From positions 186,001 to 250,000 of the forward strand of contig JAPPLJ010000050.1 in assembly GCA_028819475.1 (NCBI GenBank): a DNA stretch of 64,000 nt, written 5' to 3'. How positions within the stretch are numbered: the first letter of the stretch is position 1; the number at the start of each line of letters is the position of its first letter. Shown here piece after piece: positions 8,175-17,692 of the stretch. The notes below the pieces were generated by a model. That model made no database searches, had not been told where the DNA came from, and saw only the letters and a program-made list of their open reading frames with translations. Position numbers and translations under genes: made by a program. The DNA is from Rhodospirillaceae bacterium. Its GTDB lineage: Bacteria; Pseudomonadota; Alphaproteobacteria; Bin65.

Positions 8175-8308
8175 GGCCGGCTCTCTGCTCCAGATGGGTC
8201 GGCGAAACGATCTGCATTGTCCGCCCGATGGCCGCACTGTTCAAGGCCAAGCGAGGGCGCATTGCAGCAGGGGCTTCCCCGGCGGGCCGCATCCGCTATG
8301 TTCGCGCA

Positions 8309-8410
8309 ATGAGCGAAGCAGGCAATCCAGTGACTTCCATCAGCGACGGCACTGAAAAGGTTGGAGCCATCATCGCCCGATGGGAAAACCCGGCGGCTCG
8401 AAACGAGTGA
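8309..8410 (+). CDS. Possible small ORF, fragment at the left edge of the low-GC insertion
   Basis: A 33-residue reading frame (starts MSEAGNPVTSISDGTEKV) overlaps the next small frame. A -10-like TATGTT lies 7 bases upstream of the ATG, so any transcript would be nearly leaderless. The frame could be continued by the 43-residue frame in another register if a one-base shift occurred, which hints at the remains of one gene. I recognise no family, and it may not be translated. Confidence 0.2.
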   Translation: MSEAGNPVTSISDGTEKVGAIIARWENPAARNE

Positions 8411-8511
8411 GCCTTCAGATGTTTGTCGATGAGCTGCGCGACTTGCACGACGTCGAGGCCTTTGGTCGAGCAGGCGTTGAGTATATGTATACTTACTTTG
8501 CGGAACTGTAA
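8380..8511 (+). CDS. Small ORF immediately upstream of the SMC-S24 gene
   Basis: A 43-residue frame from the ATG at 8380 to the TAA at 8511, ending 4 bp before the ATG of the large ATPase. The tail (MFVDELRDLHDVEAFGRAGV) looks like a genuine amphipathic helix rather than random sequence. The tight spacing suggests translational coupling. It could be a tiny partner protein or the C-terminal scrap of a lost upstream component such as the middle subunit of a three-component ABC ATPase system. I do not recognise the family. Confidence 0.35.
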   Translation: MGKPGGSKRVSLQMFVDELRDLHDVEAFGRAGVEYMYTYFAEL

Positions 8512-8515
8512 GTCA

Positions 8516-11500
8516 ATGTCGATGGAAGAACAGTTTCAACCAATCCTTTTGGAAGACCACAGTCTAGAAGAAATCGTTCAGTTTCTGATGGCAGGAGCCC
8601 CGGTTTACCGGACAAGGGAAGAAGACTTTTGTCTAGACACCGACGACAAGCGCAAGGTCTTTGCATTCTATTACCGCAATCGTCAACTTTGGCCTAGCAA
8701 GAAAAATGTTCAGTCTACGGAAGTCGAGAGCCTCCTTCAGGCGCTTGAAGATAACCTACCAACGACCATTGCTCAGCCACAGGCTGCGGCGGCTGAAAAG
8801 CCAGTCTGGCATCTTGAACGGGTCGCGATACATCGATTCGGCGGATTGCATCGGCATATAGGACCGAATGGCGAAGACCCCGAGGATTTCATTTTTGATC
8901 TGACCAAAGAGATTACGCTGGTAAGCGGCTTCAATGGCGCTGGGAAATCAGCCTTATTGAGCGCAATCGTTTGGTGCCTGACTGGGAAGGCGCTCCGCTC
9001 TCAACACATGCCACGCGAGGTACATCAACCGATACCCGTTGATTGGTCGACTGAAGATGAAGAAACCTACGAAGGAGGTGATGCGCATCCTGATATTGCA
9101 ATACCGCCTATTGTTCCCGTGCCAACGGCCGAAGACCTCTCGTTGCTCGGCGACATGCCCAAACTCGATACGCGTGTTCAGCTTGATTTTAGGCGAGAGA
9201 ATTCCGGCGAGGTGTGCCGTGTCTCCCGCCGGCTAGAGCGCTCGGGAAAGAAATTTTCGGTGCCGGTCGAGGGTCTCGATTTTCTCGGTCTGCCTTCCCT
9301 CGCAATAGAAGCTGGAACGCTTATGCCAGGTGTAGCCGCGCACATGCGTTTCGACGAAAAAACAGATCTTGCGCAAGCTGTTTCACAGCTCACCGGTCTC
9401 AAGCCGTTGCAAGAACTCGGTCTCCGTACCGAACGGCTGCTAAACCGCCTCCGCGATAAGGAAAAACAAGCAAAGGAAAAAGCGCGCGACGAAAAATTCG
9501 ACCGATTCAAGATTCAACATAAGACGCTCAAAGAAGGTTGGGAGGAGCATTCTGACCTTGGAGAATTTCCGAAAATCCTGCTTCCTGGCGAAGTGATCGA
9601 GGTTAGTGAAGATCAAAGCGCTTCCGAAAGTATGGCCGATTGCCAGTCGACACTAGCGGCGGCGCGGACGCGGTTGAAGGAAATGAAGTTACTTATGTCT
9701 CATGATATAGAGACAATTCTTGGACAAAAGATTGAATTTTCGACGCAGCGCGAAGTCGACTCGATGGTCAGCGCACTCGACAACGCGGCGGTCCAGATCA
9801 GTGGCAAAGCTCTACAGCAGTTACCGAGCATAGGTACTCTTTCCGGTATCGGTCAAATTTCTGACGAAGACGCAGCCATTGCCGCGAATGCCATTCAAGA
9901 TGTTTGTGGTCGCGCCCAAGCGCTTTCCAGTAGACTGGAAGATGAGCGGCAGGCCGTACGCTGGCGTCTCTATGCTCGTGTCGCATCGTGGCATCGGGAA
10001 AGTCACCCGGATGAAGATTTCTCGAACTGTCCTATATGCGGCTCCGATCTCGAAAACGTCCCCGATGATGCCCTTCTTGATATCTCTGTGAAAGCAGCGC
10101 TTGACCAATGTCGTCGAACTGATAGCGACGTTGCGAAAACTTCTAAGGAATGGGAACGAGACGAATCGGCTGCTTTCTTGGATGCGCTTCCTGTAAGTGT
10201 TCGCGGTTATGCGGATATGGCACTACCTGGTACGTTGCTAGCCTTATGCCACAAGGGCTATGTTGAAGAACTGCTCGGACAGGAGGCATTTTCAGGTAGA
10301 CTACGGCCATTGCAGGAAAAAGGAAGTGCCCTTTGGGCACTGGTTACTAGCGAGGTCCAACTGCCCGTTGTTCCTAGATCGGTGGAAAGCAATTTGCCGA
10401 CCCTCCTGGCGGGAGGAAAGTTGCAAAAAAGGGTTACTGCGATTGCCCGTGTTCTCATGATGCGTGCGCATCGAGAAAACGCTAGCGATGCTTTTAAATT
10501 GCTCTTGTCCAAGTATATCGGTACCGTGAAGATTGCGGATGATGTAGCCGAACGATCGACTGAAGATGTAGCGCTGCAATTTGACAAGAAGGAAAGGGAG
10601 CTGGAACAAGCGCCGCGTAGGGAACAAATTAAGGCTTTACGGCGTGCCGCTCAAAATACGCTGCCGATCATTTCTTTGATCCGGCAAATTGAAGATCTGG
10701 AAACCGTGCGAGTGGAGTGGAATACGCACGAGTATCGACTGTCGCTATTACGTCGCGCCGCAGATGCGGTCGAGCCCTACCTGATATTTCCGGAACTCGT
10801 TTACGAACGCGTTTCCGGTCTCATCGAAATGCTTGACCGTGATACAGGCAATTGGCTAGGCAAAATTTATCGACCACATTATCTGGGAGGACCATCCTAT
10901 GGGGGATTTGAACCGGACGACGACGGTAAGTTCGGTCTGCGTGCCGGTATCGGCAACATGCGGGTACCTGCACACCAAATAATGAATGCATCGCTCCTTC
11001 GGGCCTGTATCTGGGCGTTCCTCTTCGCCTTCTGGGAACACGTTCGTAAGCATTCGGGATGTATCAGCAGCTTCCTGCTCGACGACCCACAAACACACTT
11101 CGATCCAATAAACAGCGAAAATCTAGCAGCTGTATTTCCACAGATGCCACAACGCGGCATGCGCCCGCTGATTGCTTCAAACGATGTACGTTTCGTTGCG
11201 TCCGTGCAAGATAAACTGCCTTCTTCTGCGTCAGATAGCCTGACATGGACGGCGCAACGGCTCGACCCAATTTCGTCGTCGAAACTTACAGCATCTCTTA
11301 GCCCCTCGGTAGAAGAGATTCGCGAGAAACGAGACCGTTGGCGAGAAGACGAAAACAATGTTCCCAAAGCACAAGATTTTGTCGAATGCGTCAGGGTAGA
11401 TATAGAGAATCGGCTTTGGAATCTTCTTGCAACTGATCCGCTTGTATTGCATTCTCCGACGCTTGCAGATTTGCTGGGACAGCTTCGCCATGCGCGCAAC

Positions 11501-12562
11501 GGGGGCGAACGCCCGTTCGAGGAGCCTCCGTTTGAGAAGCTACTCTCGCACCAAGCGCTACGCCACTCACACATATTTTACAAGATCATTAACAAAGCCC
11601 ATCACCAACTGGTAAATATCACGCCGCAAGACGCGGCGGACGTTCACAGAGAATACGAAAGTGTTCATAGCATACTACGCAGCTGTACAGCCGCTTATGC
11701 GCGGTTCCTTGGCCGATTGACCAACGAAGATCGCAGCCATATGCTCGCTGATGCACCTGTTGCCCCGGCGCCTGCGATTGTGCCTAATTTGGAACTTCCG
11801 GTACTCGGCGAATTGGCTGCGCGCAGTAATTCCGATATTCTTGCAATCGAGAGAGATCAGGAGCAGTTTCAATTAAGCTCTCTAGGCGACATTGCATTAT
11901 ATGTGATTCGCGGCTCTACATTCGGTACTTTAGCACTTCCGGGCCAGATTGCAATTGTTTCACTAGAAAGGGAAGCTGAAGAGGGAGAGACTGCCATTGC
12001 GTTGTATCAAGGAAAGGCATTTGCGCGGCGCATTCACCGAGACCGCAAAGATCTTTCCCGGACTCTACTTGTCTCGGACCTCTCTGGATCGGAGAACGTA
12101 CCTCCTTCAATGTTAGTTCCTACAACCGCAACTCGCGCAATGCCAATTATAGGTGTGCTGTACGATACGCGGACAGTTGTGGGTCGTGATGAAGCTGTAG
12201 TTGTAGAGTCCAGTGATACACTTACTCGAAACTTAGCGGTAGCGCGTATTGTTGAGGACAGCGCGTACCCTGTAATTCGAAATGGTGATTTGGTTCTCAT
12301 AGAAGAAATTGGGAATATCTCGAGATCAGAGATGGATAAGCTTGAAGAGAGAATTGTTGCCGTTACCGCACGTAGTGATGGCGAGAGTTTTGGCTACCTT
12401 AAGCGTCTTGGACAAGAGATTGGAAACGGCGTACGCATTTACGAGAATATAGGTCTTAATGGGCAAGCCGTTCCGATCGCCGAGAGCGAATTACTAAGTG
12501 GAGGTAGAATACACTGCCTTGAGCGGCTTTGGCGAGTTCACGGTTTTCTGAGGGGTAATTGA
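8516..12562 (+). CDS. Very large SMC/Rad50-like ATPase with C-terminal LexA/S24-like domain (candidate defence protein)
   Basis: A 1348-residue protein on DNA clearly poorer in GC than all its neighbours, with many A/T-ending codons. In order: a unique N-terminal segment (1-90); the start of an SMC-type ATPase (LERVAIHRFGGLHRHI) with Walker A SGFNGAGKSALL (Lys144); coiled-coil-like helices near 300-345 and 690-770 around a CxxC zinc-hook-like NCPICGSDL (Cys505/Cys508); a degenerate ABC signature (NASLLRACIWAFLFAFW); Walker B and D-loop SSFLLDDPQTHFDPIN (Asp856/857); a helical region 920-1090; then a C-terminal part with EDSAYPVIRNGDLVLIEE and GYLKRLG. The last two look like the Ser (1249) and Lys (1296) motifs of LexA/CI S24 peptidases, 47 residues apart. 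ATP-driven DNA sensing coupled to a LexA-like switch is inferred. I start at 8516 because an earlier ATG (8423) overlaps the small upstream frame. Confidence 0.85.
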   Translation: MSMEEQFQPILLEDHSLEEIVQFLMAGAPVYRTREEDFCLDTDDKRKVFAFYYRNRQLWPSKKNVQSTEVESLLQALEDNLPTTIAQPQAAAAEKPVWHLERVAIHRFGGLHRHIGPNGEDPEDFIFDLTKEITLVSGFNGAGKSALLSAIVWCLTGKALRSQHMPREVHQPIPVDWSTEDEETYEGGDAHPDIAIPPIVPVPTAEDLSLLGDMPKLDTRVQLDFRRENSGEVCRVSRRLERSGKKFSVPVEGLDFLGLPSLAIEAGTLMPGVAAHMRFDEKTDLAQAVSQLTGLKPLQELGLRTERLLNRLRDKEKQAKEKARDEKFDRFKIQHKTLKEGWEEHSDLGEFPKILLPGEVIEVSEDQSASESMADCQSTLAAARTRLKEMKLLMSHDIETILGQKIEFSTQREVDSMVSALDNAAVQISGKALQQLPSIGTLSGIGQISDEDAAIAANAIQDVCGRAQALSSRLEDERQAVRWRLYARVASWHRESHPDEDFSNCPICGSDLENVPDDALLDISVKAALDQCRRTDSDVAKTSKEWERDESAAFLDALPVSVRGYADMALPGTLLALCHKGYVEELLGQEAFSGRLRPLQEKGSALWALVTSEVQLPVVPRSVESNLPTLLAGGKLQKRVTAIARVLMMRAHRENASDAFKLLLSKYIGTVKIADDVAERSTEDVALQFDKKERELEQAPRREQIKALRRAAQNTLPIISLIRQIEDLETVRVEWNTHEYRLSLLRRAADAVEPYLIFPELVYERVSGLIEMLDRDTGNWLGKIYRPHYLGGPSYGGFEPDDDGKFGLRAGIGNMRVPAHQIMNASLLRACIWAFLFAFWEHVRKHSGCISSFLLDDPQTHFDPINSENLAAVFPQMPQRGMRPLIASNDVRFVASVQDKLPSSASDSLTWTAQRLDPISSSKLTASLSPSVEEIREKRDRWREDENNVPKAQDFVECVRVDIENRLWNLLATDPLVLHSPTLADLLGQLRHARNGGERPFEEPPFEKLLSHQALRHSHIFYKIINKAHHQLVNITPQDAADVHREYESVHSILRSCTAAYARFLGRLTNEDRSHMLADAPVAPAPAIVPNLELPVLGELAARSNSDILAIERDQEQFQLSSLGDIALYVIRGSTFGTLALPGQIAIVSLEREAEEGETAIALYQGKAFARRIHRDRKDLSRTLLVSDLSGSENVPPSMLVPTTATRAMPIIGVLYDTRTVVGRDEAVVVESSDTLTRNLAVARIVEDSAYPVIRNGDLVLIEEIGNISRSEMDKLEERIVAVTARSDGESFGYLKRLGQEIGNGVRIYENIGLNGQAVPIAESELLSGGRIHCLERLWRVHGFLRGN

Positions 12563-12633
12563 ACCCGGCCCTTAGGAGGCCGACGGATTTCCAACGGTCT
12601 GATCGTATACTGACCCGCGACATGCGGGCCGAG

Positions 12634-13921: not shown

Positions 13922-14631
13922 TGGCCGATCCCGCGCCCTACCGCGCCCGCGACTGGGACGTGCATCCCGCCTACGACTACCCGGCCTACGCGTCGACCGA
14001 ATTCCGCGCGCCGAAGCAACCGCTCGTGCCGATCCCGCACACCCTGTCCGAAGTGACCGGGCCGTCCTTCGGGCGCGAAGCTGCGCCGGAGGGCGAGGCC
14101 GACCTGACGGTCAACGCCCGGGTCAACGGCGAGCCGATGGGCGAGCGCATCATCGTCACCGGCCGGGTGCTCGACGAGAACGGCCGGGCGGTGCCGGACA
14201 CGATGGTCGAGATCTGGCAGTCCAACGCCGCCGGGCGCTACATCCACGAGGTCGACCAGCACGATGCGCCGCTCGATCCGAACTTCATCGGCGCCGGCCG
14301 CACCGTGACCGACGCCGACGGGCGCTACCGCTTCGTCACCGTCAGGCCCGGCGCCTATCCCTGGGGCAACCACCATAACGCCTGGCGGCCGGCCCATATC
14401 CACTTCTCCCTGTTCGGGCCCGGCTTTGCGACCCGGCTGGTCTCCCAGATGTATTTTCCCGGCGACCCGCTGCTCGAATTCGACCCGATCTTCAACGGCT
14501 CGCCGAGCCCGGAGGCGATGCAGGCCCTGGTCGCGGACTTCTCGATGGAGGTCACCCGGCCGGAATGGGCGCTCGGCTACGAATGGGACATCGTCCTGCG
14601 CGGCCGCGACGCGACTCCGATGGAAGGGTAG
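13918..14631 (+). CDS. pcaH: Protocatechuate 3,4-dioxygenase, beta subunit
   Basis: This iron-bearing subunit (237 residues) of the intradiol ring-cleaving dioxygenase turns protocatechuate and O2 into 3-carboxy-cis,cis-muconate. The non-haem Fe(III) ligands are visible: Tyr in AAGRYIHEVDQHD, Tyr in RPGAYPWGN, and His-x-His in WRPAHIHFSLFG. The N-terminal PcaH-specific region (HPAYDYPAYASTEFRAPKQP) is complete. It pairs with pcaG, whose ATG lies 11 bp downstream. Confidence 0.96.
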   Translation: MMADPAPYRARDWDVHPAYDYPAYASTEFRAPKQPLVPIPHTLSEVTGPSFGREAAPEGEADLTVNARVNGEPMGERIIVTGRVLDENGRAVPDTMVEIWQSNAAGRYIHEVDQHDAPLDPNFIGAGRTVTDADGRYRFVTVRPGAYPWGNHHNAWRPAHIHFSLFGPGFATRLVSQMYFPGDPLLEFDPIFNGSPSPEAMQALVADFSMEVTRPEWALGYEWDIVLRGRDATPMEG

Positions 14632-14642
14632 GGCAACACCGC

Positions 14643-15248
14643 ATGGCAAAGCAGACCGCATCCCAGACCGTCGGCCCCTTCTTCCTCTACGGCCTGACGC
14701 CGGAGCTTGCCGACGGCATCCGCTATACCGGCTACACGGCCAACGTGCTGGCGACGGAGGATACGGCCGGCGAGCATATCGTCGTCGAAGGCCGGGTGCT
14801 GGACGGGGAGGGCGACCCGGTGCCCGATTCCATGGTCGAAATCTGGCAGGCCAACGCCGCCGGCCGCTACCGCCACGCCGAGGACGACCGGGCGGACGCG
14901 CCGCTCGACGACAGCTTCCTCGGCTTCGGCCGCACGGGCACGGACAGGGACGGCGCGTTCCGGTTCCACACGGTCAAGCCCGGCCCGGTGCCCGGCCTGG
15001 GCAATGCCTGGCAGGCGCCGCACATCGTCGTCTGCGTGTTTGCCCGCGGCATGCTCTCCCACGCCTATACAAGGCTCTACTTCTCCGACGAAGCCGAGGC
15101 GAACTCGGCCGATCCGGTGCTCGGCGCGGTCGACGCCGCGCGCCGGCCGACGCTGATCGCCGAACGGGCGCAGAGCCGTGGCCGGACCGTCTACCGCTTC
15201 GTCATCCGCCTCCAGGGCGACGGCGAGACGGTGTTCTTCGATGTCTGA
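14643..15248 (+). CDS. pcaG: Protocatechuate 3,4-dioxygenase, alpha subunit
   Basis: This non-iron subunit (201 residues) shares the fold of PcaH and builds part of the active-site wall. It starts QTASQTVGPFFLYGL, the usual PcaG N-terminus. It retains VPDSMVEIWQANAAGRY but lacks the paired His ligands: the segment corresponding to AHIHF reads APHIVVCVFARG. The ATG at 14643 follows pcaH by 11 bp. Length is normal. Confidence 0.95.
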   Translation: MAKQTASQTVGPFFLYGLTPELADGIRYTGYTANVLATEDTAGEHIVVEGRVLDGEGDPVPDSMVEIWQANAAGRYRHAEDDRADAPLDDSFLGFGRTGTDRDGAFRFHTVKPGPVPGLGNAWQAPHIVVCVFARGMLSHAYTRLYFSDEAEANSADPVLGAVDAARRPTLIAERAQSRGRTVYRFVIRLQGDGETVFFDV

Positions 15249-15272
15249 CGCGCCGCCGCGCTGCCCGGTTCC

Positions 15273-16592
15273 GTGACGGTCGGCCCCTTTGCCTCGCGCC
15301 TGATCGGGCCGCTGCTTTCGGACCCGGCGGTCAACGCCGCGCTCACCGACGCGGCGGCCCTGACGGCCATGGTGCGGGTCGAGGCGGCGCTGGCGGCGGT
15401 GCAGGGGCGGCTCGGGATCATTCCGCCGGACGCGGCCGCGCGGATCTGCGAGGCTCTCGAAGACTTCAGCGCCGATTTCGATGCCATCGGCGCCGATGCC
15501 GCCGTCACCGGCGTCCCGACCGTGGAATTCGTCGCGCAACTGCGCCGCCATGTCGGCGGCGAGGCGGCGACTTACGTCCATTGGGGCGCGACCAGCCAGG
15601 ACATTATCGACACCGGCTTCCTGCTCCAGGCCCGGGCGGTGCTGGAGATCGCCGACCGGCGGCTCGCGAGCATCGTCGCGAAACTGAAAGAGCTTACCGA
15701 CGCCCACCGGGCGACCCCGATGGCCGGCCGGACCCGGTCGCAGCAGGCCCTGCCGATCAGCTTCGGCCTCAAGGCGGCGCGCTGGGCGCAGCCGCTGATC
15801 GCGCATCGCGCGCGGCTCGAACAGATGCGCCCGCGGGTCCTCCAGGTCCAGTTCGGCGGCGCGGCGGGCAATCTCTCGGCGCTCGGTCCGGACGGGTTCG
15901 CCGTCGCCGACGCGCTGGCGGACGAACTCGGCCTCGCGCCGGCGCCGGCGAACAGCCATGTCGCGCGCGACGGCATCGGCGAACTGGCGTCCTGGCTCGC
16001 CCTCGTCGCCGGCAGCCTGGGCAAGATCGGCCGCGACGTGTCCCTGATGGCGATGACCGAGGTCGGCGAACTGGCCGACAGCGCCGGCGGCGGCTCGAGC
16101 ACCCTGCCGCAGAAGGCCAACCCGATCGCCGCGGAAACCCTGATGACGCTGGCGGCTTACACTGCAACGCAACTGGCGGGCGTTTTCCAGGCCGCGCCCC
16201 AGGAACACGAACGCGGCGGGCCGGGCTGGACCGCGGAGTGGATGCTCCTGCCGCCCATGCTGGCCGCGACGGGCGGCGCGCTGCGCACCGCCGACACCAT
16301 GCTCGACCGGCTGGTCGTCCGGCCCGAACGGATGCGCGCCAACCTGGAGGCGTCGAACGGGCTGCTGCTCGCGGAAGCGGCCAGCTATGCGCTCTCCGCC
16401 CACATGCCGCGCGCCGAGGCCCAGGCCCTCGTCAAGGCGGCGTGCCGGGAGGCGGCGGACAGCGGCGAACACCTGATCGACCTGCTCCGGCGCACGACCG
16501 ATGCGCCCTGCGACTGGGACGGGCTGCGCGATCCGGCGAACTGCCTGAAGGCCGACGGTGTGGCGATCGACCGGATTTTCGCGGGATCGTAA
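15273..16592 (+). CDS. pcaB: 3-carboxy-cis,cis-muconate cycloisomerase
   Basis: This fumarase/aspartase-superfamily enzyme (439 residues) cyclises 3-carboxymuconate to 4-carboxymuconolactone, the substrate of PcaC. The superfamily signature GGSSTLPQKANPIAAE is intact, as are VHWGATSQDIIDTGFLLQ and PMAGRTRSQQALPISFG. The only start that keeps the N-terminal PFASRLIGPLLSDP is the GTG at 15273, 24 bp after pcaG. It is the last gene of the pcaDCHGB operon. Adenylosuccinate lyase is excluded by operon context and the active-site loop. Confidence 0.94.
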   Translation: MTVGPFASRLIGPLLSDPAVNAALTDAAALTAMVRVEAALAAVQGRLGIIPPDAAARICEALEDFSADFDAIGADAAVTGVPTVEFVAQLRRHVGGEAATYVHWGATSQDIIDTGFLLQARAVLEIADRRLASIVAKLKELTDAHRATPMAGRTRSQQALPISFGLKAARWAQPLIAHRARLEQMRPRVLQVQFGGAAGNLSALGPDGFAVADALADELGLAPAPANSHVARDGIGELASWLALVAGSLGKIGRDVSLMAMTEVGELADSAGGGSSTLPQKANPIAAETLMTLAAYTATQLAGVFQAAPQEHERGGPGWTAEWMLLPPMLAATGGALRTADTMLDRLVVRPERMRANLEASNGLLLAEAASYALSAHMPRAEAQALVKAACREAADSGEHLIDLLRRTTDAPCDWDGLRDPANCLKADGVAIDRIFAGS

Positions 16593-16904
16593 GCACGCCG
16601 CCGATGCACGGCGGGGAGAAAAGGTGCTTGCCCTCGGCGGAAAAGCATCCCATTTCCGGGCCGACGGCATACGACAGCCTGCTGGTCGACTTTTTTACCG
16701 ACGGTTCGGGCGTGCATTCCGGCCACCCGTATCGTTCCGTTCGAAGGCCTTCCGGAAGATTGACCGAGTCGTTCCTGCCCTTCGACGGCCCGTCCGGTCA
16801 CAAACCTGAACCGACCGGGCCTATGGAAGGGATCGTTCCGCCGCAGCGGCGGATCCGGCGGCCGGCACGTCCGGCCGCCACAACAACGAAGTGAGTACGC
16901 AAGA
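16593..16904. other. Long leader/intergenic region between pcaB and the cold-shock gene
   Basis: No gene is supported in these 312 bp. Just before the cold-shock gene lies a strong 9-bp stem (GGCGGCCGG ... CCGGCCGCC, 16857-16879). It could stop pcaB transcripts or be a structured 5' leader of the cold-shock mRNA, as such leaders are common for csp genes. A T6 run (near 16690) follows only a weak stem. Confidence 0.4.
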
Positions 16905-17108
16905 ATGCAAACCGGTACCGTGAAGTTCTTCAACACCACCAAAGGCTACGGCTTCATCCAGCCCGACGGCGGCGGCAAGGACGTGTTCGTCCACATCACC
17001 GCCGTGGAGCGCGCCGGCCTCGGCCAGCTTTCGGAAGGGCAAAAGATCCAGTTCGAAACCCAGCAGGACACGCGCGGCCCGAAAGCCGTAAACCTGCAGC
17101 AGGCCTGA
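16905..17108 (+). CDS. Cold-shock protein, CspA family
   Basis: A single OB-fold RNA/DNA chaperone of 67 residues. RNP1 (KGYGFIQPD) and RNP2 (VFVHITAV) carry the usual aromatic surface residues. The protein binds single-stranded nucleic acid and typically melts mRNA structure after temperature drops or during stationary phase. It is monocistronic, with a long leader upstream and a hairpin terminator (17154-17183) downstream. Confidence 0.95.
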
Positions 17109-17153
17109 ATTTTCAGCCTTGCCGTTCCGGGAAACCGGAGCGGCGTTACAGCC

Positions 17154-17183
17154 ATCGCCCGCCGGTGAAAGCCAGCGGGCGAT
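17154..17183. terminator. Hairpin between converging csp and DUF4189 genes
   Basis: A 9-bp perfect stem (ATCGCCCGC ... GCGGGCGAT) with a 12-base loop, followed on the + strand by TTCGTTT. It sits 46 bp after the cold-shock stop and 18 bp before the stop of the leftward gene, so it may serve both. Confidence 0.6.
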
Positions 17184-17200
17184 TTCGTTTCGGAATTGCG

Positions 17201-17692
17201 CTAGAGCTTCAGTTCTTCGACCTGCGCGGGCGGCGGTTTTTTGGGTGCGACGAGCGGGCGCCGTTCGTCCTGTTTGCGGTCTTTTTCGATGGCCCGGCGT
17301 TTCAGTTCCTCGAAATCCGCCGTGCACCGGGCGATGCGGAACAGGCATTTGGCGTGTTTGGCCCGGCAATTCCGGCGGGACGCGGCGGTCGCCTTGTCCG
17401 CCGTCGGGCCGTCCGCGATGGCGTAGCGGCCCTTCGGCGTCACGAACAGGGCCAGGCAGCCGTTCTTCACCGTCACGACGTTCGTACAGCGCTTCTCGCA
17501 CATCAGCCATGCGCGGCTGCGCGCCGAGATCCTGTCCGGGTGGTTCATCGAATAGACCCAGTATCCGGTCAGCCGGCTGAACGCGACGGCGCCCCAGCAT
17601 CCGCCCTTCCGGCATTTTGCGAGAGCCGGTTCCGCGGCGGCGACGCCCACCAGGCCCATCAGGAAAGCGAGCGGCAGGACGAGGCGCCACAT
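17201..17692 (-). CDS. Secreted DUF4189-type protein
   Basis: A 163-residue protein with an N-terminal signal peptide (MWRLVLPLAFLMGLVGVAAA, cleavage probably after AEPALA). The mature part has the DUF4189 pattern: WGAVAFSRLTGYWVYSMN, then spaced cysteines (CEKRCTNVVTVKNGCLAL), GRYAIADG and NCRAKHAKC. The Lys/Pro-rich tail (KKPPPAQVEELKL) is extra. The cysteines suggest disulfides in the periplasm. The function of the family is unknown. I start at 17692 because the signal peptide begins there. It overlaps nothing but lies 43 bp downstream of the methyltransferase stop on the same strand. Confidence 0.72.
   Translation of the reverse strand: MWRLVLPLAFLMGLVGVAAAEPALAKCRKGGCWGAVAFSRLTGYWVYSMNHPDRISARSRAWLMCEKRCTNVVTVKNGCLALFVTPKGRYAIADGPTADKATAASRRNCRAKHAKCLFRIARCTADFEELKRRAIEKDRKQDERRPLVAPKKPPPAQVEELKL

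Follow-up and report, generated by a model that had tools for sequence, protein, structure and literature searches.

A Rad50-like ATPase ending in two tandem S24 folds: probably an undescribed single-gene immune protein of a Rhodospirillaceae bacterium

Bacterial immune ATPases carry nuclease, trypsin-like, TIR and other effectors, and in RloC, one of the RloC/PrrC-type single-chain ABC ATPase effectors, the ATPase, a coil, a hook and a C-terminal effector share one polypeptide. Lamassu systems are composed of LmuA, LmuB and LmuC; LmuB is a protein of about 650 residues with a Glu-to-Gln Walker B and, in many but not all cases, a CPxC zinc-hook-like motif (PMC10586767). Trypsin-like proteases fused to infection-sensing NTPases activate pro-nucleases in Hachiman, AVAST, Lamassu and DRT (PMC12799240). 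Here we describe a gene from a Rhodospirillaceae bacterium (assembly GCA_028819475.1) that encodes a Rad50-like ATPase with two S24 (LexA-family) folds in tandem at its C-terminus. It lies in a stretch of 64,000 nucleotides of contig JAPPLJ010000050.1, positions 186,001 to 250,000 of the forward strand, which we call the window and whose own numbering we use. In the literature searched we found no description of an ATPase of the SMC (structural maintenance of chromosomes)/Rad50-like type with an S24 domain, in line with an earlier sequence-only reading of this DNA, which knew of no system with such a layout.

The gene occupies 8516-12562 on the plus strand as an intact open reading frame (ORF) of 1348 codons with no internal stop. 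A second start, TTG at 8423, is open in the same frame; the ATG at 8516 agrees with the starts of the homologues in the alignment and fits better as the start codon. Guanine plus cytosine (GC) content is 0.50-0.53 across the gene (~51%) as against 0.63-0.75 outside it and roughly 69% for the chromosome. The sequence-only reading had described a 1348-residue protein on low-GC DNA, and all the motifs it named were recovered: GFNGAGKS (K144), CPIC at 505/508, LLDDPQTHFD (D856/D857), EDSAYPVIRNGDLVLIEE (S1249) and GYLKRLG (K1296). For conservation we used an alignment of 20 full-length members including the window protein, with homologues 23-63% identical from alpha- and gammaproteobacterial plasmids and genomes, a sampling biased toward what patterns and plasmids reached. 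Mean column identity was 47%. K144, C505, C508, D856, D857, S1249 and K1296 were identical in 20/20 aligned sequences and in two more distant members, L040 (21%) and L074 (22%), both of which also retain the whole of DDPQ and A1102; the invariant columns further include G138, N140, G141, G143, D856-Q859, E1226 and R1297. The 271-residue tail has 10 invariant columns, and the serine and lysine that had been picked as a catalytic pair are both among them, with a probability by chance of (10/271)x(9/270) = 0.001.

For this tail a LexA/S24 domain had been proposed; the S24 assignment and its Ser-Lys dyad held up while the single domain gave way to a pair of S24 folds, of which one is dead at the dyad positions. 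AlphaFold modelled residues 1078-1348 confidently (pLDDT 87, pTM 0.86), and the model repeats one strand order, at 16-24, 49-54, 68-72, 82-87 and 90-98 and then at 130-138, 164-169, 182-187, 203-210 and 213-226 (tail numbering). Searching the PDB with this model by Foldseek returned LexA or CI structures at all ranks from 1 to 32 and UmuD soon after, with a probability near 1 for most. Profile matches of the tail to LexA reached 1.4e-4, and Pfam S24 was matched in 15 of the 20 tails; in the window protein this match covers residues 1126-1178, which is the degenerate copy 1, upstream of the copy with Ser and Lys. An S24 profile that combined LexA, UmuD (both E. coli) and lambda CI with ten genome-derived S24/LexA proteins matched copy 1 (E 2e-8) and, less strongly, copy 2 (E 0.0023); neither any of 200 column shuffles nor any core tile reached the score of copy 2. 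The Pfam S24 match of the distant homologue L040 falls on copy 2 and lies above the curated cut-off. Given the strand repeat, the Foldseek, Pfam and profile matches, the shuffle control and the L040 match, we conclude from model and alignments that both halves of the tail are S24 folds. No DNA-binding helix-turn-helix domain was found in the protein.

The two copies differ at the residues that define the catalytic dyad of the family. Copy 2 (about residues 1206-1346; 12131-12553) is predicted to be an active Ser-Lys protease: in the S24 profile alignment Ser1249 (12260-12262) falls on LexA Ser119 and Lys1296 (12401-12403) on LexA Lys156. In copy 1 (about residues 1091-1204; 11786-12127) members have T, G, S, N or A where the serine would be, and 19/20 of them have Arg where the lysine would be (Arg1171 in the window protein). 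Given that the serine is not kept and the lysine is replaced by arginine, copy 1 is, as judged from these columns, catalytically dead, a pseudo-protease.

The part of the protein preceding the tail has the layout of a Rad50/SMC-like coiled-coil ABC ATPase, in which Walker A and Walker B flank a coiled coil with a hook. Walker A, GFNGAGKS, spans residues 138-145 (8927-8950); the hook motif, CPIC or CPVC across the family with both cysteines invariant in 22 sequences, lies at residues 505-508 (10028-10039) between two long helices or coils at residues 296-343 (9401-9544) and 701-785 (10616-10870); and Walker B, FLLDDPQTHFD with an invariant DDPQ, spans residues 853-863 (11072-11104). The window protein matched Pfam AAA_23 at 2.1e-8, and the family profile, searched against the PDB, found Rad50 at 1.7e-10, the alignment taking in both Walker regions. 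In the AlphaFold model of the core (residues 97-1077; pLDDT 77, pTM 0.55) the relative placement of the parts is unsure; Foldseek of this model gave Mre11-Rad50 as the best match (2e-12), with Lamassu LmuB (5e-8) as the first defence protein listed. The PADLOC LmuB model PDLC03859 matched 20/20 members (7.9e-19 for the window protein), while direct comparison with a canonical LmuB, that of locus L029, gave E 0.015 confined to coil and hook, and we therefore call the core LmuB-like and not LmuB. Walker B is followed by a helical linker domain (about residues 930-1075; 11303-11740) of no recognised family, with invariant R960, E964 and H1030. The N-terminal domain (residues 1-96; 8516-8803) is likewise conserved family-wide, with no Pfam match and no recognised relative.

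From sequence, models and analogy, we consider it an evenly balanced call that this is an anti-phage or anti-plasmid ATPase that spreads horizontally and probably acts as a single-gene system, with the S24 Ser-Lys protease as its DNA-gated effector. By comparison with Rad50 and Lamassu, the Rad50/LmuB-like head with its coils and CxxC hook would dimerise on foreign or broken DNA, and an ATP-gated rearrangement would then expose or align the Ser1249-Lys1296 protease of copy 2, whose dyad is assigned by conservation and alignment and whose catalysis is presumed. Copy 1, a dead S24 fold, could pair with copy 2 and act as its regulatory or pseudosubstrate partner. The activated protease might cut a cellular target or its own chain and so halt the infection, probably at the cost of the cell, as analogies with Lamassu (PMC10586767) and with protease fusions (PMC12799240) suggest. 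A more specific version, which we hold only tentatively and regard as rather unlikely in full, is a RecA-independent one-chain S24 system, a DNA-gated immune protease in which the Rad50-like ATPase on DNA ends would serve as co-protease, as the RecA filament does for LexA, and would switch on a Ser-Lys S24 protease restrained by its dead S24 twin.

How the protease would be used is a separate matter, on which the residues around the presumed cut site bear. The sequence-only reading had coupled the ATPase to a self-cleaving switch or a protease; the fusion of a Rad50-like core to a dyad-bearing S24 fold is borne out by prediction, while the switch is its weakest part, with no conserved Ala/Cys-Gly site. 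As a LexA-like switch, copy 2 would, after DNA sensing by the head, cut copy 1 of its own chain or of a partner chain at Ala1102, freeing the protease or the motor. Ala1102 (11819-11821) is invariant in 22/22 sequences and lies on the LexA scissile P1 residue Ala84, and loss of the dyad in copy 1 with its retention in copy 2 is the expected division between substrate and enzyme. LexA-type sites, however, need Gly after the P1 residue (cf. the LexA G85D mutant), and across the 20 aligned members Ala1102 is followed by R, Q, H, F or S and never by Gly. At the equivalent position copy 2 has D, T or G and so no canonical site of its own, and neither copy contains a LexA-type Ala/Cys-Gly scissile bond within the same domain. 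We regard this switch as doubtful, and LexA-type self-cleavage in general as possible but not favoured. Given that its dyad is invariant while its cut-site equivalent is D, T or G, copy 2 looks in these alignments like an enzyme whose target differs from its own canonical site; copy 1 would then be its pseudosubstrate or partner, a role as substrate being less likely with the Gly missing.

The defence role proposed for the ATPase and its protease is inferred from the genomic context of the relatives and from the site that the gene occupies. Comparison of the window by blastn with the corresponding site of six congeners (G001-G006), in all of which the same flanking genes were found, placed the gene in an inserted low-GC segment (8282-12609) that is missing from that site in the congeners, with its left edge between about 8183 and 8281 and its right edge at about 12610. 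The flanks encode an acyl-CoA dehydrogenase and a nicotinamidase-like protein on one side, the latter name being our reading of the orthologous gene in L068, and an alpha/beta-hydrolase on the other. No insert is present in G002 (flanks about 306 bp apart) or G005 (about 98 bp), and the inserts of G001 and G003 measure 1.75 kb and 2.8 kb; in G004 and G006 the two flanks are on different contigs. The G003 insert (L068) encodes a Mrr-type nuclease and a Type II methyltransferase, and that of G001 a 569-residue protein matching PADLOC candidate PDC-M36A at 1e-38 (L066, 2102-3811). Being empty in two congeners and filled with alternative defence cargo in two others, the site resembles a defence hotspot whose contents are exchangeable. 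No tRNA was found at the insertion site. The inserted leader is occupied by two tiny overlapping ORFs on the plus strand, 8309-8410 and 8407-8511 (33 and 34 codons), the second of which stops 4 bases before the gene; no similarity to them was found in related loci, and they could encode a leader peptide or have arisen by chance. The whole window contains no alphaproteobacterial-type SOS box (GTTC-N7-GTTC) and no promoter-like match was found upstream of the gene, leaving SOS control of the gene unsupported.

Relatives of the gene are mobile and have known defence genes as neighbours, as the proposal of horizontal acquisition had anticipated, and do not keep a vertically inherited core position. 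In a plain listing, made without a random control, their neighbours included a Type III restriction enzyme 46 bp upstream (REase_III, 1114 bits; L019), BrxA and BrxC (BrxC 1947 bits; L025), Drt1a (1288 bits; L026), Shedu (L014), and upstream an anti-phage ProA (2151 bits; L024), whose place in L008 is taken by a DUF3320 protein. In a Pseudomonas metagenome-assembled genome (MAG), L029, a canonical ABC-3C/Lamassu operon with a CTD6 protein, a small middle gene and LmuB (477 bits) stands directly downstream (14136-17526). Integrases and conjugation genes were also found around the relatives. On rhizobial replicons (L009, L010, L011 and L021) a pair made up of a DUF1403 gene and a ScpB-like gene is found repeatedly upstream of the homologue. 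Clustering of neighbours over 23 loci revealed no conserved partner gene and no nuclease gene conserved upstream; SbcD, present in eight loci, was the only one to recur widely and, given its variable distance and strand, was not counted as a component of the system.

The search of plasmid records yielded 24 matches, 18 of which span the greater part of the protein; rhizobial records predominate, with a single one from Pseudomonas. An alignment-based genome scan added full-length members, of which the nearest (63%) is from a Rhodobacteraceae MAG, whereas single-sequence scans of genome contigs and viral contigs gave no match. The family is rare, being found in 4/385 genomes of the class and 4/398 of the phylum sample, some of these as fragments or head-only matches. 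In the tree, Pseudomonas proteins are nested with strong support in an otherwise mostly alphaproteobacterial group, a placement that points to transfer between classes; within the class, genome G481 has a protein 87% identical to a Mesorhizobium one. Phage records gave no match, and the viral-contig matches of the alignment scan cover the ATPase head only, the two inspected being ordinary phage-type ATPases, so a phage origin was dropped. The G496 locus shows just the N-terminal part before its contig runs out and is uninformative on modularity. Broken homologues were seen in L009, L011, L016 and G431 (L111), as split frames, an IS630 insertion, decay and a C-terminal remnant with a stop, as expected for a costly accessory gene.

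Several observations weigh against an immune ATPase with a protease effector. All 22 sequences have Asp at the usual catalytic Glu position of Walker B, so ATP turnover may be slow. No Foldseek match of the tail to the PDB was at E 0.001 or better, and copy 2 is divergent from LexA in sequence (one comparison, at the E of 0.0023 given above). SbcD-like genes, usually with SbcC-like ones, lie within about 10 kb in 8/23 loci (L008, L009, L010, L012, L016, L020, L021 and L024), in varying order, strand and distance; this possibly reflects a functional link or a shared island, and a partner role would count against the proposal. Together with the Rad50-like core and the many homologues on large plasmids, these neighbours agree with an ATPase of DNA repair or plasmid maintenance in which the S24 folds merely dimerise or dock like UmuD', without proteolysis. 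Docking alone, however, needs no exact retention of Ser and Lys across 22 sequences, the fold of copy 1 survives without both, and alternative defence genes occupy the chromosomal hotspot; we consider this explanation improbable. That the protein is a Lamassu LmuB whose LmuA and LmuC partners were lost or lie elsewhere agrees with the PADLOC and Foldseek matches and is very improbable all the same, with no LmuA or LmuC beside the window gene or conserved in the 23 loci, twice the usual LmuB size and a match to canonical LmuB confined to coil and hook.

The DNA-gated Ser-Lys protease is the preferred reading, and the gene probably encodes an undescribed single-gene immune protein. If true, an S24 protease wired to a Rad50-like DNA sensor would be a new pairing, and the logic of the SOS response, from DNA signal to S24 proteolysis, would be linked to phage defence, possibly without RecA. 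Four residues (K144, A1102, S1249 and K1296) carry the whole idea, and about 20 homologues are known.

Among described systems, SbcCD/Mre11-Rad50 shares the head and hook architecture and differs in the protease-like tail found here; no Mre11 subunit adjoins the gene in the window. RloC/PrrC-type proteins carry an anticodon nuclease where this protein has S24 folds, and no match to Pfam AAA_13 was found in the window protein. Trypsin-like fusions likewise join a protease to an infection-sensing NTPase, sensing being assigned here by analogy, and the protease here is of the S24 type. With LexA, UmuD and CI (peptidase family S24) the protein shares the fold, the positions of the Ser-Lys dyad in copy 2 only and a P1-like Ala in copy 1; it differs in its tandem copies, one of them dead, and in a fused ATPase that could replace RecA as the trigger. 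Lamassu shares the Rad50-like head, the coils, the CPxC hook, the defence-island setting and an effector linked to the ATPase. Its components, however, are three separate proteins with a reported Gln at the catalytic position of Walker B and LmuA in the operon, whereas here a single 1348-residue chain has Asp at that position and carries its effector as a C-terminal pair of S24 folds.

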